Shown here one piece after another: positions 1 to 58,060 of a DNA stretch of 64,000 nucleotides. The notes beneath the pieces were generated by a model that searched no databases, had not been told where the DNA came from, and worked only from the letters and a program-made list of their open reading frames with translations. Every line of letters starts with the position of its first letter. The stretch's first letter is position 1. The translations under genes and the position numbers were made by a program. Source of the DNA: Spirochaetota bacterium (GTDB taxonomy: Bacteria; Spirochaetota; UBA4802; UBA5368); NCBI GenBank assembly GCA_004297825.1, contig SCSX01000019.1, positions 1 through 64,000 on the forward strand, written 5' to 3'.

Positions 1-2
1 CG

Positions 3-410
3 CATTTATTAGACAGATGTTTCAGAGAAAGTCGATTTAATAGCTATATGATCGGAGAAATACATATTGTCTCTCCAGACTTAATCCCTAATAGTAGAAG
101 AGATGATTTTATAGATAATGAAGCTAAAACCATATTTTATAATGAGATAGAAAAAGCAATTGGTCTCCCTGTATCTAGAGAAATAAGACTAAGATCAAAA
201 TCTCAAAATGCCTTAAATATCAATACTGGTTCTCTCGAGGCCCCTCAAAAATTAACAACGCAAGATGAGAATAATAAGTTGAAGGGATTGAGTGTTGTAG
301 GTTGCAATAACCGAATGCCATCCGAAGAGGTAATTCGAGGAATAATAAAAAATTGTTCCAATTGCAATACATTTATTAAAATAGTTAATGATTCATCAAG
401 TTGCACGTAA
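3..410 (+). CDS. Hsp90-like (GHKL) ATPase, C-terminal part, cut by window edge
   Basis: The reading frame is open from the first bases of the window, so only the last 135 codons are visible. The segment SPDLIPNSRRDDF followed by an acidic/aromatic stretch (DNEAKTIFYNEIEKAIGLP) resembles the middle part of Hsp90/HtpG-like ATPases that occur beside helicases and nucleases in defence loci. The ATP-binding GHKL domain would lie upstream and cannot be seen. The tail is Asn/Ser-rich and unremarkable. The gene is AT-rich like the convergent minus-strand operon 86 bases away, so both probably arrived together. Family assignment rests on one conserved block and is moderate. Confidence 0.55.
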   Translation, partial: HLLDRCFRESRFNSYMIGEIHIVSPDLIPNSRRDDFIDNEAKTIFYNEIEKAIGLPVSREIRLRSKSQNALNINTGSLEAPQKLTTQDENNKLKGLSVVGCNNRMPSEEVIRGIIKNCSNCNTFIKIVNDSSSCT

Positions 411-495
411 TGTTAGCTTACTCTGAATCTATCTTCCAATAATATTATTTATGGAATGAAAAATATCGTATTTGTAAACTGGGAATTAATATTTA

Positions 496-1479
496 CTATA
501 GTTTGTTTATTTCTTTTAATACTCTATGAGTGTTTGCTTCAATTTTTGTTAATTCGAACTTGCATTTATCAATTACCGTCTCGTCTAATTCGCAAATATT
601 TTCCATTAATGAACCTTCAACGATCCATTTTCTAAAATGATGGAGTTTTTTATAAATTGTATTATTATGACCTTGTTTGTCTGCCTTTTCGTAACTTTCT
701 TCAAAACGACATTCCCCTGATAGAAATTTATTTACTATAGCTGGTTTTGCCGTTAATATCACGGGTAATTTATCTCGTAAATCTGCGGCGGTCGGAATCT
801 CTTTGGTTTTTATTTTTTTAACTACGACTTTGTCGAGATCTGGAAATTTATCTCGTGCTTTTTTGACGGAGTTATTTCTAAGGTATTCGAAGTAATAGCT
901 CCAGCGGTCCGTTCTCTTTTCATTTTTGCTAAGCATTAAAGAATATACATTGATATAGAAATTAACATGCTTCACCGTTAGTCCCATGTCATTCGCAATT
1001 TGCTGAACCGTAACATTGTGTTGCTTGTGGCGTCGATATAAATACCCAGCCTGTTCATAGGGAGCCCAATCTTTTTTCCCTTTTATGTGGTCAGCTAATA
1101 TTGCAAAAGCAACGTCATCGCCTACATCATTTGATAATATTTTACATTTTACTTTTGCCCACTTAATGTCTTTTTGTTCGAGTATCTTGTACGCAGCAAG
1201 GCGGCTATTCCCCTCGAGTACCATATTATTGCGAACAATAAGTGGCTCTCTGAGGCCACCATTGGTTTTTATTGATTGTAGTAATTCATTTACATGTTCC
1301 ATGTTTTTTAATTTATCAAATATTTCTTCTTGAGATGGTTCGGAACCATCATCGTATATTAGTGAATAAATACGGGGATTTTCTGGGTAAAAATTAAGAT
1401 CGCGGACTTGAAGATAGCCAATTTGTACTGGAATTTCCTTTCCGAGCAAGGTGATTGAATCATTGTTGAATTCACTCAT
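496..1479 (-). CDS. ParB/Srx-fold protein (first of two)
   Basis: A 327-residue protein with a ParB/sulfiredoxin-like N-terminal domain: an opening strand (RDLNFYPENPRI), a helix with SIKTNGGLREPLIV, and the signature EGNSRLAAYKIL near residues 109-120, matching the nucleotide-binding GxxRxxA motif of ParB CTPases. A helix-turn-helix-like segment (VTVQQIANDMGLTVKHV) follows at about 155-171. The C-terminal half is not recognised. It is the last gene of the minus-strand operon, and its start overlaps the end of the helicase gene by 8 bases, indicating translational coupling. In known systems ParB/Srx folds serve as CTP switches, nucleases or modification sensors; which applies here cannot be told. 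Confidence 0.75.
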   Translation of the reverse strand: MSEFNNDSITLLGKEIPVQIGYLQVRDLNFYPENPRIYSLIYDDGSEPSQEEIFDKLKNMEHVNELLQSIKTNGGLREPLIVRNNMVLEGNSRLAAYKILEQKDIKWAKVKCKILSNDVGDDVAFAILADHIKGKKDWAPYEQAGYLYRRHKQHNVTVQQIANDMGLTVKHVNFYINVYSLMLSKNEKRTDRWSYYFEYLRNNSVKKARDKFPDLDKVVVKKIKTKEIPTAADLRDKLPVILTAKPAIVNKFLSGECRFEESYEKADKQGHNNTIYKKLHHFRKWIVEGSLMENICELDETVIDKCKFELTKIEANTHRVLKEINKL

Positions 1480-2962
1480 TTACGTTTCCTTTGGATGGAA
1501 TTTTAAGAATATCTTTAAGCATGGTTCCAAAGTCATATGACATTCGGCTTCTATAATATTCAAGAGTGATGTCGCCTTGAGCAAGCTTGGCTGCTAATTC
1601 TTTCGAAGTCAGCAATGCGTCAATCCATTCGTCGATTGAATCTTGCATAACAATATTATGCACAAAACATGTATGTTGCTGAGAAATACGATGGATTCTA
1701 TCCTGCGCTTGGATGTAATCATCCAAGCTAAAACCACGATCATAAAAAATCACATGATTCGCAACTGTAAGAGTTAACCCTTCCTTTGCGGCTCCCGGCG
1801 TAGCTATTAGTATGCGAGTTTTGGGATCATTCTTAAATGCAGCTACACTATGGCTCCGTTCATACATATTCATTTTGCCATAGATTTTACATGTTCCGAA
1901 TTCAACTAAATCTCGACTTAACCAATCAACATTTTCTGTAAAGGAAGTCCAAACAATACATTTCTCCTTGTTGTCTGTAATTCGGTGTATTAAGTCATGC
2001 AAATAAATCAGTTTGCCTGGTTCGGAACAATATGACTCATCAACTAGTCGCGGATTGGAGGTAATCTGCACTAGTCGAAGAAGACGCTTTAAGATGCCTT
2101 CGGAAATGTCATCAAATGCCAATCCTTCTTTTATTATCGTAGTTCTCATTTCATCACGTACTTGAGAATACATTTCATACTGAATGGGTTCCCAAATTGA
2201 TTCGACCCTTTCGAACACTTTTTCCGGCAAGGAAATTACACCACTTGATTTTGTTTCGCGCACTGTGAAGTGGCTAATATTATTCATTATTTCTAGCAAA
2301 CCATTTTCAAGACTAGTTCTTAGTTCGGTCGATTCAGCAAGATTATTGGATAAATCGTGACTGTGACGGAAATGTTGATAATTGTTGCCAAGGCTTCTTC
2401 CTTGGTCGAGGAACCATATTTGTGCCCAAATATCGTAAGGACGATTTGCCACGGGTGTGCCAGTCATAATTACACGTCTTTTAAAAAAGGGAGCCAAATT
2501 GAAAAATGCCTGCGTTAAACTTGAATCTGGATTCTTAATTTTTACTGATTCATCAAGAATCGCTCCCACATCTCTTGACTTAAGGAATAATATCATTCGC
2601 TCAAATTCCGATTTTACAACTTCGTAATTTGTGAGTACAATTCTGAAGTCGCCATTAAATACGAAATGATTCTGGTGCTTGTCTTGAGAAAGAATTCCAG
2701 GACGCAGTTGACAATGCTGTTTGAGTTCTTCGTGCCAGTTGTGTAATAAAGATTTCTTTACTACAATCATTACGGTATCGATTATTTGTGATTCAAGCCA
2801 ATATAACAGCAAATCGATGGCAATTTTTGTTTTTCCTAATCCCTGTTCGTGAAATATGGCACTATATTCTAATTTCTGAATCGCTCGAACAGCTTCTAGT
2901 TGATAGTCGAACCCATGCATTTTGGGAATTAAATTCGGTTTCCTTTTTAGATATGGCTTCAT
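1472..2962 (-). CDS. SNF2-family DNA-dependent ATPase/helicase
   Basis: A 496-residue superfamily 2 motor. Motif I is HEQGLGKT (residues 38-45), motif II reads DES rather than DEAH (137-139), motif III is TGTP (167-170), and the second RecA lobe carries KCIVWTSF and the SNF2-type motif VI (QAQDRIHRISQ, about 426-436). It is a minimal SNF2 core with no obvious accessory domain, so targeting must come from partners. The start overlaps the stop of the upstream nuclease gene by one base (TAATG), and the end overlaps the next ParB-like gene. It most likely translocates on DNA as motor of a multi-protein complex made with its operon mates. SNF2 assignment is secure; role is inference. Confidence 0.88.
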   Translation of the reverse strand: MKPYLKRKPNLIPKMHGFDYQLEAVRAIQKLEYSAIFHEQGLGKTKIAIDLLLYWLESQIIDTVMIVVKKSLLHNWHEELKQHCQLRPGILSQDKHQNHFVFNGDFRIVLTNYEVVKSEFERMILFLKSRDVGAILDESVKIKNPDSSLTQAFFNLAPFFKRRVIMTGTPVANRPYDIWAQIWFLDQGRSLGNNYQHFRHSHDLSNNLAESTELRTSLENGLLEIMNNISHFTVRETKSSGVISLPEKVFERVESIWEPIQYEMYSQVRDEMRTTIIKEGLAFDDISEGILKRLLRLVQITSNPRLVDESYCSEPGKLIYLHDLIHRITDNKEKCIVWTSFTENVDWLSRDLVEFGTCKIYGKMNMYERSHSVAAFKNDPKTRILIATPGAAKEGLTLTVANHVIFYDRGFSLDDYIQAQDRIHRISQQHTCFVHNIVMQDSIDEWIDALLTSKELAAKLAQGDITLEYYRSRMSYDFGTMLKDILKIPSKGNVNE

Positions 2963-3396
2963 TACTTATCCCATAAATCAGAAAACTGTTCAGGCAAATA
3001 TTCTAATACGATAACGTCGATACTTTTTATATTATTATTTCGCATGATGGCCTTCAATAATCCCTTAACACAATTTACCATAGTCCATGGGACAGCCAAT
3101 AGTAGAGCCGATGAAGCAAAGCATGAGCAATGTTTCAAATAGGAGATATACTGATTTTTTGAGTGTCTTGATTCAACATCCATTAACGTTTTTGCTTCAC
3201 CAATAATGATTCGCTCCCCAAATCTCGCTTTTGCATAAACATCAGGTATAAAACCATCAATGCGAGGAGGTTGGTTTCCTAAATTTAAATTGGAAATATC
3301 ACAGTGAATAAAATATTCTAGGCCTCCATCATTCCCCTGTTGAAGCCATTTAATTAGTTCTTTTACGTAAAACGTATGTGTTGATGAAACAGACAA
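2962..3396 (-). CDS. Small PD-(D/E)XK-type nuclease candidate
   Basis: A 144-residue protein with the pattern of a PD-(D/E)XK nuclease core: PDVYA at residues 51-55, a short hairpin, then GEAKT at 66-70, giving the D-(x)n-E-x-K triad D52, E67, K69. The compact size resembles stand-alone restriction-type or VRR-NUC-like domains. A later helix (QYISYLKHCSCFASSALLL) fits the helix that packs on the core. It lies between a ParB-like gene (start directly after that gene's stop) and the helicase gene (1-base overlap), so nuclease and motor should be made in matched amounts. Not assigned to a named family. Confidence 0.65.
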   Translation of the reverse strand: MSVSSTHTFYVKELIKWLQQGNDGGLEYFIHCDISNLNLGNQPPRIDGFIPDVYAKARFGERIIIGEAKTLMDVESRHSKNQYISYLKHCSCFASSALLLAVPWTMVNCVKGLLKAIMRNNNIKSIDVIVLEYLPEQFSDLWDK

Positions 3397-4404
3397 TTAT
3401 TCATTCCTAGTTTCGATATCTGAGCATAATTGATCGATCTCATCCTTTAGTGAAAAAATATTTTGGGTTTTCTCGCTATCGGCATTTGTGCTCATTTCAC
3501 GGACAGAGGCATGACTAATATTTCTTAAGCGATTTATAAGTTCTTTAACTAGTGAATCCATCGGAATACTTGAAAAGTTCTCACCAACTTCATTTACCAC
3601 CAATTCTTTTAGGGCTTCTCTTGCCCCTACACTGAAAAATTTTGTCTTACTATTTGGATTGCGAAGGATACGAGGCAAATCGCGAACTGTTGCCAATGGA
3701 TCAATTAGACGATCATTTACCCAGCCGGCGAAATTCTCCTTCGTGTAACCACCTTCACTAAGTGCAGTTAAAATTGGCCCTTTTTGAAGTTCAACAAAAG
3801 CACTGAAGCGAGTTTGATCAAACTCGGATTCATCACTTAAAATTGGTCTATAATAAGTCTCTATATCATTATAAGCCTGGATTAAAGACAGTACTTCTTG
3901 CCTTTTTCCACCACAGAAATCAATAATTTGATTAATTGTTAAATGATCACTATTTCTAAGTTCATTGAGATATTTTGCCTTTGAATATGGATCCCATGCT
4001 CTAGGACCTACTAGGTGTGCTTGAAGCCTGATGGCGTCTTGACTTGCTAATTCTAGATTGTCATATACTAAAGATGGAATAACATTCCAATCGCCGATTA
4101 CCTTTTGTTTCTTAAATTCACGGTAGATTGCCGCCCTAGTATTTCCCTCGATTACAACAAATATTCCATCTGGTCTACAGTTGACGATAATTGGATTAAT
4201 TATTCCGCCGTTTGTACGTATTGACTCTTTTAAGCTTTGAAATGTTGTCCCCCCTTCTGAACTAGTGGGGCTTCCAGCGCCAAGTGCAAGATTTATCTGG
4301 TCTGCAGTAGGGTTAGTGCCATACTTTTCAATCAATCTGGCAATTCTCGGATTGGCAACATCAAGTAGGAGTTTATCAACTTCAAGTAGTTTTAACGTTG
4401 GCAT
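3397..4404 (-). CDS. ParB/Srx-fold protein (second, distinct paralogue)
   Basis: A 335-residue protein with the same architecture as the ParB-like protein at the operon's other end: LLLDVANPRIARLI near the N terminus, SIRTNGGIINPIIV, then the signature VIEGNTRAAIYREF at about residues 96-109. The central part has DPYSKAKYLNELRN and a possible helix-turn-helix (LTINQIIDFCGGKRQEV) as in that protein, but sequences are only distantly alike. It is the first gene of the four-gene operon, and the next start codon abuts its stop. The two homologues may form a heteromeric sensor or recognise two different sites. No classical partner ParA is present, which argues against plasmid segregation. Confidence 0.72.
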   Translation of the reverse strand: MPTLKLLEVDKLLLDVANPRIARLIEKYGTNPTADQINLALGAGSPTSSEGGTTFQSLKESIRTNGGIINPIIVNCRPDGIFVVIEGNTRAAIYREFKKQKVIGDWNVIPSLVYDNLELASQDAIRLQAHLVGPRAWDPYSKAKYLNELRNSDHLTINQIIDFCGGKRQEVLSLIQAYNDIETYYRPILSDESEFDQTRFSAFVELQKGPILTALSEGGYTKENFAGWVNDRLIDPLATVRDLPRILRNPNSKTKFFSVGAREALKELVVNEVGENFSSIPMDSLVKELINRLRNISHASVREMSTNADSEKTQNIFSLKDEIDQLCSDIETRNE

Positions 4405-4441
4405 AAAATACCACCTTAGTCCTTTAATTGTTGAGATCGTA

Positions 4442-4666
4442 CTAAATCCGCGTTCCGTCCGCTAACGTGATCTTCTTTATCGCTTCTGGGTGAACGGCAA
4501 GAAATGTCCCCAGGATCTTTTGCAACAGCAAACACGAAATCCCATGGTCCTCGCCGGGGTCCAGCAAATACGCAAGATATGAACTGATATTAGGTTCGTT
4601 GATGGATCCGTCGTAGGAAGAGAGAATCTTGAAGATATTCATGATTTCTCGATTGGCATCCCGCAT
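4442..4666 (-). pseudogene. Truncated PD-(D/E)XK (PDDEXK_4-like) nuclease, N-terminal fragment
   Basis: Seventy-four residues that look like the start of PD-(D/E)XK nuclease superfamily proteins of the PDDEXK_4 type: IMNIFKILSSYDGSINEPN, then SYLAYLLDPGEDHGISCLLL, which in that family precedes the catalytic core. The catalytic residues are absent because the frame stops where base composition changes from GC-rich to AT-rich near base 4440. The simplest reading is that a host nuclease gene was cut when the AT-rich island inserted. It may still be expressed with the downstream operon, as it reads in the same direction 37 bases upstream. Family identification is moderate. Confidence 0.5.
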
Positions 4667-4873: not shown

Positions 4874-5199
4874 ATGAAAACGGAAAATATACCGGAAGCA
4901 GTCGAGGAACTGAAAACCGCCCTTGTCGGTAAATTCGGCAACGGAATCACGCTAATCCTCTTCGGCTCCGCTGCCAGGGGAACATGCGGCAGCGATTCGG
5001 ATGTCGATATTCTGGTTCTCATTCCCGGAATGGTTGGTATTCGCCTGGAGGAGGAAGTGATCGAAACCGCGTATGAAATAGAGCTCCGTCATGACGTGGT
5101 GTTCGGGATCATCGTGTATCCCGAGAATTCTGGGATTCCGGACTCTCCTCCGTCATGCCGCTTCATGTGAACATCGACCGCGAAGGCGTTCCGGTGTGA
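4874..5199 (+). pseudogene. MNT-type nucleotidyltransferase antitoxin, frameshifted
   Basis: The N-terminal 80 residues are a clean minimal nucleotidyltransferase: LILFGSAARGTCGSDSDVDI carries the GSxARG motif and the DxD metal pair. After VVFGIIVYPE the frame slips. In the original frame the expected tail FWDSGLSSVMPLHVNIDREGV follows (in part) and ends at TGA 5197-5199, overlapping the GTG start of the HEPN gene at 5196. A single missing base in GAGAATTCTGG (about 5121-5131) explains both frames, so the antitoxin is probably dead; in its present frame it ends at 5170 with an unrelated tail. The start at ATG 4874 follows AGGA about 15 bases upstream. Confidence 0.7.
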
Positions 5200-5384
5200 A
5201 CGACAAGACCGACCTCATACGATATCGAAGGGCGAAGGCGCGGGAAACATTGCGCGATGCGCGGGTATTATTCGAAAACGAAAGCTACTCATCCGCGGTC
5301 AACAGAATATACTATGCTCTCTTTTATTTCCTGTGGCACACGTCTCAACGCCGATGCGCATGGATCAACACGCCTCCCCCATGA
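5196..5384 (+). pseudogene. HEPN toxin remnant paired with the MNT gene
   Basis: Starting at a GTG that overlaps the ancestral MNT stop, the product begins like a HEPN-domain toxin: IRYRRAKARETLRDARVLF, then NESYSSAVNRIYYALFYFL, the two first helices of the family. After about 47 residues similarity ends in a Pro/Arg-rich tail and a stop, so the C-terminal helices with the RX4-6H ribonuclease motif are gone. The gene order and overlap are those of MNT/HEPN toxin-antitoxin modules, in which the nucleotidyltransferase AMPylates the toxin. Both members here are broken, so the locus is a relic. Confidence 0.65.
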
Positions 5385-53931: not shown

Positions 53932-54340
53932 CGAGGTATGGGCGCATGCGTGGTGCTCCGGAGTCATAGGGCTCGAATAGTGCCGCGTTCGATTTCCCGG
54001 CGATGAATGATGATGTCGGCTGTCTTTTGGTCCATACTGGCACCCTGCCCGTGGGTGCACTTATAGATCGCTGAACAGGAAAAGCATCAGTCTTATGTCT
54101 GTTCTCCGGGGCCTGCCCACCGCGGCAGGCGCATTCACCAGGATCTGATATTCCCGTCAAATTTCTTGAGTTGAAAATTTGAAATTAATTAAGTTGACAA
54201 ATAGGCGTGGTGTACCCTTTGTGTAATAAGAAACTAAAATGGTTTTATAGTTTCTATCGTATTCGACTGTTCCCCGATTCTTGGGTGATGAGTGCATATG
54301 TCAGGAATACGATCAATCGATATTCATTAAGGAGCGGATA
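53932..54340 (+). other. Intergenic region before the cupin gene
   Basis: About 400 bases without a supported gene. The right part is AT-rich, with TTGACA at 54193-54198 but no -10 at the right spacing. An inverted pair CCTGCCCACCGCGGCAGG lies near 54112. AAGGAG at 54329 serves the next gene. Confidence 0.35.
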
Positions 54341-54790
54341 ATGATAATTAGAAAACTCGCAGACATGGAAAAGATCGATGTGGGTAAGCCATTCGGGCTT
54401 CCTGACGGAATGTTCGTGATTCAATGGATAATAAGCAATCAGGTTGGTGATGAACGATATAGGCATCGATATGCAGTACGCAAATATACACTTCAACCGG
54501 GCCTCCCGCTCGAGATGATGCCGCTTCATAACCACGCCTATATTCAGTCGCCCGTTGTCCTGAAGGGTACAATGATATTTCAAAATGGTGACGGCGAAAC
54601 GATCGAAGTCGGTCCCGGCGATACCGTATATTTTTACGAAAATGAGAAACACAAGGGTGTCGTCAAGGGTAACGAACCGGTAGAATTGCTCTGCATTATA
54701 GACTGTCCCGGTGACGGCACTGATTGTATACCGGATATTCCCAAGAATGCCATGGTTGAAAAACTGAAAGAATTCAAGGGGTGCGGCTGA
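54341..54790 (+). CDS. Cupin-domain protein
   Basis: A 149-residue protein with one cupin barrel. The family motif is seen as LEMMPLHNHAYIQSPVVLKG (His-rich motif 1) and, after a loop, VGPGDTVYFYENEKHKGVV for motif 2, so a metal site of His residues is likely. Related single cupins act in small-molecule or quercetinase-like oxidation. It starts at ATG 54341 with AAGGAG upstream. It is followed 67 bases later by a metallo-hydrolase gene and then a second hydrolase gene, in one direction, which suggests a catabolic pathway for an ester or lactone. Confidence 0.75.
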   Translation: MIIRKLADMEKIDVGKPFGLPDGMFVIQWIISNQVGDERYRHRYAVRKYTLQPGLPLEMMPLHNHAYIQSPVVLKGTMIFQNGDGETIEVGPGDTVYFYENEKHKGVVKGNEPVELLCIIDCPGDGTDCIPDIPKNAMVEKLKEFKGCG

Positions 54791-54857
54791 GAGTCCGGCA
54801 ATTAGTAAAACCGAATTCAGTTTTGATGAATTTTAAATTTCATATAGGAGTTCAAGA

Positions 54858-55685
54858 ATGAAGTATTGGAAAATAAAGGTCCTCTATTTCGGAAATATAC
54901 GTGCGCGGGTCTCGATGATTTGGCCGGCGGGGATGCCTCCGCTGGAGGAAGATTTCGAGATGAGTGCCCCATATTTAGGATTCCTATTGCAGAATGGGAT
55001 GAGAAATATTCTGGTTGATACGGGAATCAGCGACGGATTCATCGTTGACGGCAAGGCATGGGGTGCTCTCCCGGCAGAAGGTGGTTCTTGTTTTGTTGAG
55101 AATGCCTTGAAGAAAGAGGGATTATTGATATCCGATATTGACACGGTGCTCCTGACACACCTGCATAATGATCATGCGGGGAACGTGCATCTTTTCAAAA
55201 ATGCCAGGATTATTTTCCAGGAAGATGAATGGCACAACTTCATGAAGCCGATACCACAACAACTTCCCAGGGGAGATTACGATTTTGGTATCGCCCCAGT
55301 TATTAAAAGCCTCAACACGGTTCAGGTTAGCGGCGACATTGATATTGATGCCGGCATTAAGGCGTTTAAAATACCCGGCCACAGCAAGGGCAGCCAGGCA
55401 ATCTCAGTTGCCACCGAGAAAGGTGTTGTCGTTCTTATCGGAGACCTCTGTCTTTTTAATTTTATGATTTTCCCGGGAACCACCGAAGTAGTGGAAATGA
55501 ACGGGAAGCATCATTCAATACCGGCGGCTCCTCCCACACTCGGTCCAGCGGTGCCCAGCAGCATAATCTACGACCTTTTCAGTTTCTATGACAGTGTTGA
55601 CAGGGTCAAGGCCCTTGCTTCAAAGGTCGAACCGGGCTATATTTTGCCGGGTCATGAACCGTCCCTGGTTGGCACATCTTATTAA
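54858..55685 (+). CDS. MBL-fold metallo-hydrolase
   Basis: A 275-residue metallo-beta-lactamase fold enzyme. The metal motif THLHNDHAGN lies at about 96-105, a second His in GHSKGSQAI at about 178, and the C-terminal PGHEPSL supplies the last ligand. An Asp in VVLIGDLCLFNF bridges the metals. The two-Zn arrangement resembles N-acyl homoserine lactonases and other lactonases or esterases. It is within the cupin to hydrolase gene set. Confidence 0.85.
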   Translation: MKYWKIKVLYFGNIRARVSMIWPAGMPPLEEDFEMSAPYLGFLLQNGMRNILVDTGISDGFIVDGKAWGALPAEGGSCFVENALKKEGLLISDIDTVLLTHLHNDHAGNVHLFKNARIIFQEDEWHNFMKPIPQQLPRGDYDFGIAPVIKSLNTVQVSGDIDIDAGIKAFKIPGHSKGSQAISVATEKGVVVLIGDLCLFNFMIFPGTTEVVEMNGKHHSIPAAPPTLGPAVPSSIIYDLFSFYDSVDRVKALASKVEPGYILPGHEPSLVGTSY

Positions 55686-55753
55686 CACTGAATCCGATTC
55701 GTTCATTCCGCGTTTGGGCGGGCGGATCGATTCATTATGAGGAGGCAGTCTCG

Positions 55754-56932
55754 ATGGCATTTCATCAATTAATCGACGAACCCCAGATGAATTTCTCTGT
55801 CAACAGGATCCTTACCTATGGAGAAAATGCTGCGGATATAAATGAAGTCCGTGATATCTGCGAAAAGATACACGACTTTGACACATGGTATAATGAATGG
55901 ATTATTCTGGCAGCAAAGGCTGAAAGAGAGAAACGTTACTTTCATGCGGCATTCTATTATCGTATGGCGGAGTTTTTTCTTACCGACGACAAGGAGGAGA
56001 AGCTTAGTTCATATGTAAAATGCAAGGAAAACTTTTCCAGGGCGATCGGGCGTGACCACAGTGTTGCATTTAAGGATGTCCCATTTATGGGAGGGTCGAT
56101 TCCTGCTATGATTTTATCTCCGAACGGTATTTCCAGGGCGATCATCCTGATTCATGGAGGCTATGATTCCTATATGGAGGAGTTTTATCTTACCGCAAAA
56201 CGTATGGTGGAATTGGGGTATACCGTAATCATGTTCGAGGGTCCCGGGCAGGGGGCTGCGCTTAAAAATGGATTTAAATTCACCTACAAGTGGGAGGAAC
56301 CAGTTTCGGCTGTACTGGATTTTTTCGATATGGAGGCTGTGACCCTTATCGGAATATCGTGGGGCGGCTATCTCGCACAGAGGGCAGCCGCGTTTGATGC
56401 CAGAATCAAGCGGGTTGTTTCATACGATGTGTTTTATAATGGAATGGATTTTATCACCAATGCGATGCCAAAAGGCGGCAAACTATTCCTTAAGGCGATG
56501 TTCAGACTCGGAGCGAAGACGGCGGTAAATCGACTGGTCCGTTGGGCTCGTAAAAAGAAGCCGCTCGCCGACTGGGGGATCAGTCATGGTATGTACATCA
56601 CGGGAACGGATACCCCTTATGATTTTTTCAAGGCACTATCGAAACACGATTTCGGCGCAATTGGGGGCAGAGTAACGCAAGACGTATTATTGCTTGCCGG
56701 AGAGAGGGATCATCTTGTTCCCGCAGGGACATTGCAAAAGATGAAAAAAAAATTGCGGAATGCTAAATCCATCACCACGAGAGTATTCACGGCTGAAGAA
56801 GGCGGTGAACAGCATTGTCAGGTCGGCAATATTGAACTGGCGGTGAATGAAATTCATAACTGGATGAATTCATTTTCCCTGGAACATGCCGCAATGCCGG
56901 GATTACCTGTTGATCATCGTCGATCCTCTTGA
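55754..56932 (+). CDS. Alpha/beta hydrolase, FrsA/DHPON-hydrolase-like
   Basis: A 392-residue alpha/beta hydrolase with an N-terminal helical domain (residues 1-115) as in 2,6-dihydropseudooxynicotine hydrolase. The oxyanion loop HGGYDSYMEE, the nucleophile elbow GISWGG, an Asp in AGERDHLVPAG and a His in GGEQHCQVGN near the C terminus form the triad. C-C bond cleavage of a beta-diketone is one possible reaction, and simple esterase activity another. It follows the MBL gene by 68 bases. The tetR gene lies 300 bases downstream. Confidence 0.8.
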   Translation: MAFHQLIDEPQMNFSVNRILTYGENAADINEVRDICEKIHDFDTWYNEWIILAAKAEREKRYFHAAFYYRMAEFFLTDDKEEKLSSYVKCKENFSRAIGRDHSVAFKDVPFMGGSIPAMILSPNGISRAIILIHGGYDSYMEEFYLTAKRMVELGYTVIMFEGPGQGAALKNGFKFTYKWEEPVSAVLDFFDMEAVTLIGISWGGYLAQRAAAFDARIKRVVSYDVFYNGMDFITNAMPKGGKLFLKAMFRLGAKTAVNRLVRWARKKKPLADWGISHGMYITGTDTPYDFFKALSKHDFGAIGGRVTQDVLLLAGERDHLVPAGTLQKMKKKLRNAKSITTRVFTAEEGGEQHCQVGNIELAVNEIHNWMNSFSLEHAAMPGLPVDHRRSS

Positions 56933-57231
56933 AGAATTGCAGCGGATTCAGGAACCATTCACTTGATAGCCGCCAACCACGATTGCGTAGTGTTGCATCT
57001 CGTGATACGTAATAGAGTTGTCGCATAACTCCATTTTTTACGGGGCATAAGGGGCGAAGCCCCTTAAAAGCCCCCCGCAGGGGTCCCCTGCGCGCGTGAG
57101 ACGGCAGTTTCGCAACAAGTCCAATTGTTCATTGACACAAGCGTATCAGATATAGATGATTTATAAGTTTGTTTTGCGTTAGCGATATTTTATTAAAATT
57201 AAATCGCCAATTCAGGATATGGAATGTAACT
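56933..57231 (+). other. tetR upstream region with dispersed GC-rich repeat
   Basis: A copy of the GGGGCGAAGCCCC repeat (57050-57110: GGGGCGAAGCCCCTTAAAAG, then CCCCGCAGGGG) lies in the middle. TTGACA (57132-57137) overlaps ACACAAGCGTAT (57135-57146), the presumed TetR site, also present before the hydrolase gene at 52915. The -10 is not evident. Confidence 0.45.
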
Positions 57232-57807
57232 ATGGATCAGAAAAACCATGTACTTGATGTCGCCAAGCTGCGATTCGACCGGTTCGGGTATAAAAAAACG
57301 ACGATGGATGAAATTAGCAGCGATGCGAAAATCTCTAAAAAAACTCTCTATGAACTTTTTACCGACAAAGAAGATTTGTTTGTGTCTCTCTTTATAAGAG
57401 AGGCGCTTAGTGCCCGTGAATACCTTTTTACAAAGATTAAAGATATGGATGATCCCCGGGAGAAACTTATTAGGTTATCAGGCGTCATAGGAGACAATTT
57501 TAACGAACAGCACTTCATGGTAAAAGTACTTAAAGACAATGGGGCACTCTATACTCCATATCTTAAAAAAAGTTTCCTTGAACAGACGGAGGAAGAAACA
57601 ATACGGATCATATCTGAGATTATAAAAGATGGCATACGCAAACACCTATTCAGGAATATCGATCCTAAAATAGTCGGATATATGATTTTCAAGCTGTTCC
57701 AGGCGTTTACTTATGCCAGAACATCGACTCTGGAAGGAGATGAAATAAACAGAAAAGCCAATATTAAAGTGCTTATGGATTTTATTATGAGAGCGTTGGC
57801 CAGATGA
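57232..57807 (+). CDS. TetR-family transcriptional regulator
   Basis: A 191-residue TetR protein. The N-terminal helix-turn-helix (AKLRFDRFGYKKTTMDEISS, then DAKISKKTLYELFTDKEDLF) is typical, and the rest is a helical ligand-binding and dimerisation domain. It is transcribed in the same direction as the hydrolase cluster and separated from it by a repeat and its own promoter. The sequence before it contains an operator-like 12-mer shared with the promoter region of the hydrolase gene at 52915, so it probably represses itself and that gene until a lipid-like ligand binds. Confidence 0.87.
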   Translation: MDQKNHVLDVAKLRFDRFGYKKTTMDEISSDAKISKKTLYELFTDKEDLFVSLFIREALSAREYLFTKIKDMDDPREKLIRLSGVIGDNFNEQHFMVKVLKDNGALYTPYLKKSFLEQTEEETIRIISEIIKDGIRKHLFRNIDPKIVGYMIFKLFQAFTYARTSTLEGDEINRKANIKVLMDFIMRALAR

Positions 57808-58060
57808 TCTGAAATGGTTAAGCGCATCAGTTAACGTTGCCAATCGATTCCGGGCATCGCTGTCGATATCGGTATCATTGCGCAGATTCTGCAATGCCGC
57901 AGTGAAAAGGCCGGGGCATCTTCCGTAGTATCGCCATGAGTGACAATGAAGAGGATGTCCTATTCAGGTAGATACGCTTTTTTATGCTTGAGCGCTTTGT
58001 TGTATAAGTATATGTAGTTACCTTGATTATCCCCAAGGATGGAATAACCGGAAGGATGCC

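Follow-up and report, generated by a model that had tools for sequence, protein, structure and literature searches.

A ParB-nuclease-SNF2-ParB operon linked to a radical-SAM gene: a candidate two-module, restriction-modification-like defence system of bacteria

Introduction

In Dpd systems a modification operon accompanies a restriction operon of helicase and nuclease genes, and DpdB is the ATPase that drives the insertion of a base into DNA (PMC12839542). The Dnd/Ssp systems also have a modular modification/restriction layout, and the Dnd modification modules have been reported to be decoupled from the restriction modules (PMC10853773), as is the case here. In the MORC/paraMORC restriction-modification (R-M) systems a GHKL ATPase goes together with a nuclease of restriction fold and with a helicase of SF2, often of the SNF2 type (PMC2292703). 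The locus described here shares traits with all of them. It lies at positions 1-4440 of a 64,000-nucleotide stretch from a Spirochaetota bacterium (contig SCSX01000019.1 of assembly GCA_004297825.1, hereafter the window) and encodes two ParB/Srx-like proteins, a small predicted PD-(D/E)XK nuclease and an SNF2 motor. In its relatives the operon adjoins a gene for a radical S-adenosylmethionine (SAM) protein, rSAM, wherever the flanks exist. On balance, we favour a two-module, R-M-like defence in which rSAM would set a self mark and the ParB/SNF2/nuclease proteins would attack unmarked DNA.

With Dpd the locus has in common the pair of operons, an SNF2 protein that matches DpdE (E 5.5e-34) and, in part of its relatives, a DpdB-like partner of the ParB superfamily. 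However, DpdA (the TGT-type transglycosylase), DpdC and DpdD/F-K are absent from the conserved genes, rSAM fills the enzyme slot, and two ParB proteins with a standalone PD-(D/E)XK nuclease replace the Dpd set. The DndB family (PF14072) is shared with Dnd/Ssp, but DndA, DndC, DndD and DndE are missing from the conserved genes (a DndA/SspA-type cysteine desulfurase match occurs once among 100 neighbour proteins), and DndC has no kinship with rSAM, which is a genuine radical-SAM protein (PMC10853773). In contrast to the MORC/paraMORC set, the conserved genes include rSAM and the ParB pair instead of a DNA methylase, and the GHKL ATPase tracks rSAM, not the helicase. Classical R-M systems of types I-III differ likewise by their DNA methyltransferase, for which the conserved set has no counterpart. 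The system would join modification-coupled restriction, like Dpd and Dnd, as a new variant, whose mark chemistry would be new if confirmed.

Genes of the operon in the window

Positions 1-4440 hold four minus-strand genes, in the order ParB2, nuclease, SNF2 and ParB1, and a GHKL (Hsp90/MutL-like) ATPase gene that faces them and of which only the 3' end is present. An earlier note on this DNA had described the same genes as a candidate uncharacterised defence module. Its account of the tight spacing is exact, with junctions of 0 bases (ParB2/nuclease), a 1-base overlap (nuclease/SNF2) and an 8-base overlap (SNF2/ParB1), and so is that of an AT-rich composition unlike the rest of the window, since the G+C content is 36.0% in positions 1-4430 and 57.7% in the remainder. 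The window opens at a contig end, its base 1 being base 1 of contig C19, so the earlier note had sight of only half the system: the four genes and the ATPase end were correctly seen, but the central partner rSAM and the frequent DpdB/DndB-like protein were missed.

ParB1 (496..1479, minus strand, 327 residues) matches TIGR00180 of NCBIfam (E 1.4e-6) and PHROG 3694 (E 1.6e-16), and ParB2 (3397..4404, minus strand, 335 residues), encoded by the first gene of the operon, matches PHROG 3694 as well (E 1.4e-12). Pfam support for the two assignments is weak (E 0.11 and 0.017), while that from NCBIfam and PHROGs is clear (1e-6 to 1e-16). The ParB1 residues E89 G90 N91 S92 R93, the EGNSR of residues 89-93, are kept in 60 homologues and the EGNTR of ParB2 (residues 86-90) in 58, EGN(S/T)R being common to all relatives. 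ParB2 homologues of 43-45% identity reside on rhizobial and Roseomonas plasmids, and a ParB1 search of 50,697 phage records returned no match. The SNF2-family translocase (1472..2962, minus strand, 496 residues) consists of the motor without added domains; it is recognised by the Pfam families SNF2-rel_dom (E 1.9e-28) and Helicase_C (E 7e-18), and its motifs GLGK, DE, GTP and QxxDRxHR are kept in 60 homologues.

The remaining protein (2962..3396, minus strand, 144 residues, TTG start) gave no family match in a Pfam search. Its residues D33, P51-D52, E67-x-K69 and Q82 are kept in 59 homologues, and an AlphaFold2 model built from 37 sequences, with a predicted local distance difference test score (pLDDT) of 92, has the helix-strand-strand-strand-helix-strand order of the PD-(D/E)XK core. 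In this model D52 and E67-x-K69 are placed at the second and third core strands (53-57 and 63-68), in accordance with the PD-(D/E)XK signature, and the weak Foldseek matches include several PD-(D/E)XK enzymes (CdiA-CT nuclease, EndoMS, Mus81/Hef). From conserved residues and model, the protein is taken as a PD-(D/E)XK nuclease. Profiles, conserved residues and the nuclease model thus agree with the identities that the earlier note had proposed for the four proteins, and its view of motor and nuclease as the attacking part is also supported.

The missing half of the system

A tblastn search of plasmids located the four genes in three genera, Rhizobium, Mesorhizobium and Roseomonas; in Bradyrhizobium it detected a version that has diverged and has an additional ParB-like gene. 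The plasmid copies adjoin, in codirectional or convergent orientation, genes annotated as DGQHR protein, radical SAM protein and ATP-binding protein. With the plasmid radical-SAM protein as query, a single homologue was found in the window's own genome, at 656-2053 of contig C62 (E 1.5e-93). Its neighbour, on the minus strand and running into base 1 of C62, is a GHKL ATPase gene of which the N-terminal part (1-628) is present, and ahead of the radical-SAM homologue lies a small ribbon-helix-helix-like gene (2218-2391, plus strand). The window holds the C-terminal part of a GHKL ATPase (3..410, plus strand), with its frame open at the contig start and without a match in Pfam alone. A 434-residue GHKL protein from a related locus (L015) aligns to both: its residues 1-211 are 53% identical to the C62 part and its residues 314-434 are 45% identical to the window fragment, which bears out the Hsp90-like ATPase that had been surmised at the convergent plus-strand end. 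Since both parts align to one protein, and about 100 GHKL residues are missing between them, this homology makes it most likely that the first bases of C62 and C19 face each other across an assembly gap of about 300 bases within one gene. No exact overlap between the two contig ends was found, so the join depends on homology.

The AT-rich island extends about 2.4 kb on C62, at 30-36% G+C, and the gene order inferred for this genome is ribbon-helix-helix gene, rSAM and GHKL, followed by the convergent ParB1, SNF2, nuclease and ParB2. The own GHKL copy holds REYIQN, DNGPG and RGFRGIGR (the N, G1 and G2 box motifs), and the box residues E53, N57, D60, D94-x-G96 and RGFRG-x-GR are kept in 45 sequences. 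Small ribbon-helix-helix-like proteins are also encoded just upstream of rSAM in two other loci (L021 3441-3701 and L067 1928-2173, both plus strand), and they are perhaps regulators of the modification module.

Recurrence of the operon and linkage to rSAM

A scan of 84,980 species genomes for ParB1 was carried out with an alignment built from rSAM-carrying loci, the search itself making no use of rSAM. It yielded 44 relatives of 35-52% identity from about ten phyla, as read from record titles (Pseudomonadota, Desulfobacterota, Acidobacteriota, Planctomycetota, Chloroflexota, Firmicutes, Nitrospirota, Verrucomicrobiota, Bacteroidota, Poribacteria and others), and six more were found on viral contigs; with six plasmid copies, 56 loci are considered here. 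Some of the neighbouring open reading frames come from mechanical calling and are perhaps spurious. The order ParB2-nuclease-SNF2-ParB1 is kept in all 56 as far as the contigs reach. The genes are consequently not scattered in any relative examined, and their co-inheritance in unrelated genomes, on which the earlier note had staked its proposal, is borne out.

rSAM is adjacent to the operon in 53 of the 56 loci, in 51 by profile and in two as divergent proteins with CxxxCxxC. In the remaining loci the contig stops 69, 114 or 130 bases from the operon on the relevant side, and rSAM was not found elsewhere in those genomes. The linkage is obligate in the sense that a ParB operon without rSAM was never seen where flanks exist, so that, by genomic linkage rather than by function, the modification module is present wherever the restriction module is. 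A GHKL gene stands beside rSAM in 41 of the 56 loci and a DGQHR (DpdB-like) protein in 26, and eight loci from Firmicutes, Planctomycetes and others have five genes only (ParB2-nuclease-SNF2-ParB1-rSAM), with no GHKL seen beside rSAM.

This linkage bears on two readings that we regard as remote. ParB/Srx domains are present in modification-dependent enzymes such as GmrSD (PMC12839542), and with a reverse, type-IV-like logic the ParB proteins would sense modified phage DNA, the complex would cut it and rSAM would act elsewhere, for example on RNA; yet a nuclease of this kind would not require a fixed partner for self-modification, and the presence of rSAM wherever flanks exist makes this explanation quite improbable. 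Plasmid partition or maintenance is suggested by the ParB-like domains and by the several carriers that are plasmids. However, most matches are not plasmid records, the conserved set has no ParA, its invariant partners are a nuclease, an SNF2 motor and rSAM, and its neighbours are defence genes; the partition reading, hardly credible, was rejected for the absence of ParA and the invariance of nuclease, motor and rSAM.

In about a dozen loci a gene pair for a PIN-like nuclease and a second GHKL ATPase adjoins the rSAM system (L006 17279-20944, L007 17315-20831, L011 19487-22931, L116 4081-7634 and L117 1806-5128); this pair may be an accessory of the system or a defence pair in its own right.

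Co-evolution of two modules

Correlation of pairwise identities across the loci separates the proteins into two modules. Within ParB1, ParB2, nuclease and SNF2 the Mantel rho is 0.71-0.80 and between rSAM and GHKL it reaches 0.93, whereas between the two groups it is 0.27-0.40 (0.31-0.39 for rSAM against each protein of the restriction module). Kinship among the loci inflates these correlations, but both modules were compared over one and the same set of loci. rSAM is the more conserved, with a median identity of 56% as against 42% for the ParB proteins, 29% for the nuclease and 29-52% for the restriction-module proteins overall. Hence two modules co-evolve internally and are loosely coupled to each other, and high correlation within modules with low correlation between them is what the exchange of two interdependent cassettes between systems would give.

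The correlations also redefine the role of the ATPase. The earlier note had supposed that it gates the assembly of motor and nuclease; this is not sustained, because GHKL follows rSAM much more closely than it follows the ParB/SNF2/nuclease group and is absent from the five-gene versions. For the same reasons GHKL is more likely a helper of rSAM.

The tight rSAM-GHKL co-evolution could also be expected if rSAM modified a protein partner (e.g. GHKL, ParB or the nuclease) and thereby switched a DNA-cutting complex on or off. The closest solved structure, MgmA, is a radical-SAM protein methylase and RimO is a protein modifier too, and for other conflict systems it has been proposed that radical-SAM enzymes modify a peptide effector (PMC7159879). 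However, the five-gene versions dispense with GHKL, the correlation of rSAM with each restriction-module protein is low, and the occurrence of the rSAM family with unrelated DNA-acting partners is more easily reconciled with a shared DNA mark than with a protein target specific to one partner. A defence with a protein target is for us an unlikely reading, although the most serious of the alternatives.

The radical-SAM protein and its DpdB-like partner

The cysteines C157, C161 and C164 of rSAM (CxxxCxxC) are kept in 56 sequences, and the match to Pfam PF04055 is below the curated cut-off. The model of the protein (pLDDT 89) matches MgmA, MiaB, TsrM and AprD4 at E 1e-10 to 1e-8, all of the type in which an N-terminal Rossmann/B12-type domain precedes the radical-SAM barrel, so that the CxxxCxxC motif of the superfamily is found in a radical-SAM fold. 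The B12-binding profile PF02310 is detected in rSAM relatives, above the cut-off in one (L077, E 1.7e-8) and at E 0.014 in another (L018), and rSAM may use cobalamin. A methylthiotransferase of the MiaB/RimO kind was rejected, as only the three radical-SAM cysteines are conserved, the three more that would hold a second Fe-S cluster being absent, and Pfam gave no TRAM match; methylthiolation is accordingly less likely than methylation or another radical reaction.

The DGQHR partner, of the DndB family PF14072, matches the PADLOC profile of DpdB (E 8e-19). This match, the association of GHKL with helicase and nuclease as in R-M neighbourhoods, for which GHKL ATPases with SF2/SNF2 helicases and nucleases are typical (PMC2292703), and the DNA-acting partners point to DNA as the putative substrate of rSAM.

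Radical-SAM antivirals, the viperins, are known in prokaryotes. Their existence and the semi-independent evolution of the modules would be compatible with an rSAM that makes a modified nucleotide or small molecule poisoning phage replication, the ParB/SNF2/nuclease set being a separate second weapon. This is improbable: the protein has the fold and domain arrangement of the B12-domain/MiaB type, no viperin ranks among its 50 best PDB matches, two weapons independent of each other would not lie side by side in 53 of the 56 loci, and the DpdB-like partner points to nucleic acid.

Other partners of the rSAM module

The rSAM-type module also occurs without the ParB operon, on plasmid pNL1 of Novosphingobium aromaticivorans, on a plasmid of Agrobacterium sp. 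S7/73, in two genomes (L114 and L115) and, with HerA-NurA, in a Marinitoga virus. On the two plasmids DGQHR-rSAM-GHKL has as its neighbour a DndB-domain protein of some 770-790 residues, and the same type of DndB-domain fusion is found in the two genomes, which belong to the group around the Rhizobium carrier. Among 398 genomes of this group rSAM is present in three and ParB1 in one, a count too sparse for statistics that nonetheless brought the alternative partner to light. The fusion takes the place of the ParB operon beside DGQHR-rSAM-GHKL or rSAM-GHKL (L114 9280-11292, L115 11294-13690, L116 12174-14483 and L117 5490-7850), and its N-terminal region is weakly restriction-nuclease-like (Card1_endonuc, E 0.012-0.028), one protein having a weak Swt1-like HEPN match.

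In Marinitoga camini virus 1 (L118 6998-10824) a relative of rSAM neighbours genes that the depositors named HerA and NurA-type nuclease, and homologues of this pair stand beside rSAM-GHKL on two IMG/VR contigs (L075 and L076); rSAM with HerA/NurA-like genes is an apparent sister system. That one rSAM family accompanies three unrelated attack modules argues for a common product which all three recognise. An rSAM linked to every testable nuclease module yet also found without that module is expected if the nuclease module by itself attacked the host.

Defence context and described systems

The 100 proteins that flank the loci matched 169 PADLOC families (E <= 1e-5), against 7 for 45 control proteins from the rest of the window; families overlap, so that these totals are not protein counts, yet the difference is wide. 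The matches include Gabija, PD-T7-1, PD-T7-5, MADS, Septu, AbiO and type II and type IV restriction enzymes, the kind of neighbours that the earlier note had foreseen. From this setting in defence islands and its gene content the system is likely a defence.

The gene set is apparently unnamed so far, as the earlier note had suspected, since no profile of PADLOC-DB 2023 or NCBIfam and no open-licence paper describes it, closed papers and newer databases being outside the scope of the search. Identity with Zorya, DISARM, Dpd or Dnd was rejected, their profiles matching single generic proteins only. The SNF2 motor matches ZorD (E 9.5e-46), but ZorA, ZorB and every other Zorya protein are absent from the conserved genes and the 496 residues of the motor carry no added domains. 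The same motor matches DrmD of DISARM (E 7e-15), a generic SNF2 match limited to DrmD/DrmA, and the conserved set lacks DrmA, DrmB (DUF1998), DrmC and a methylase. The N-terminal ParB-like region of protein A of the PADLOC candidate PDC-M38 and of PD-Lambda-5 matches the two ParBs (E 1e-10 to 4e-9 and 2e-4 to 5e-4, respectively); however, those proteins have 440-715 residues, only the ParB-like part aligns, and the partner genes differ.

At the island's edge, positions 4442-4666 of the window (minus strand) encode a 74-residue N-terminal piece of another protein of the PD-(D/E)XK type (PDDEXK_4, E 0.0043; PADLOC PDC-S26, E 1.6e-6), apparently a gene remnant. Genes or remnants of MNT/HEPN-type nucleotidyltransferases flank the AT-rich island on both sides (window about 4874-5350; C62 2754-3098), and a gene pair similar to them is also near the Rhizobium (L006) and Ruminiclostridium (L056) copies. 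A search for flank repeats around the island gave nothing beyond chance-length matches. A second stretch of lower G+C (41-47%) lies at about 54000-58000 of the window.

Proposed mechanism and implications

In the R-M-like defence favoured here, the modification module, which for this genome lies mostly on C62, would mark the cell's own DNA by means of a B12-domain-type rSAM with GHKL and, in about half of the loci, a DpdB-like protein, GHKL being dispensable in the small versions. The ParB1-ParB2 pair would recognise DNA or sense its marking state, the SNF2 motor would travel along DNA using ATP, and the small PD-(D/E)XK nuclease would cut DNA without the mark. The mark would thus protect DNA, and unmarked DNA would be cleaved. 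Several observations weigh against this scheme. The nearest solved radical-SAM structures act on protein (MgmA, RimO), tRNA (MiaB) or small molecules (TsrM, AprD4), and none on DNA. The nuclease fold is weakly backed by Foldseek (best E 0.027). In the window's own genome the DGQHR (DpdB-like) gene was not found, with no such open reading frame beside rSAM, and the reading frame of the own GHKL copy is broken by a stop 5 bases short of the end of C62, either an effect of the assembly edge or a real defect.

More tentatively, the loci could represent a new class of R-M-like immunity, in which a DNA self mark is set through undescribed chemistry by a B12-domain-type rSAM that serves as an exchangeable module for at least three attack partners (ParB-nuclease-SNF2-ParB, the DndB-domain fusion and HerA-NurA). 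Carriers that can be cultured are Rhizobium leguminosarum bv. trifolii WSM1325 and, for the sister variant on plasmid pNL1, Novosphingobium aromaticivorans DSM 12444. If rSAM marks DNA, self would be told from non-self by a mark of radical chemistry, which is able to alter carbon positions beyond those of ordinary methylases. If the scheme is true, a family of modification-restriction systems would extend over about ten phyla, on conjugative plasmids and phage-like contigs, without a profile in PADLOC-DB 2023.

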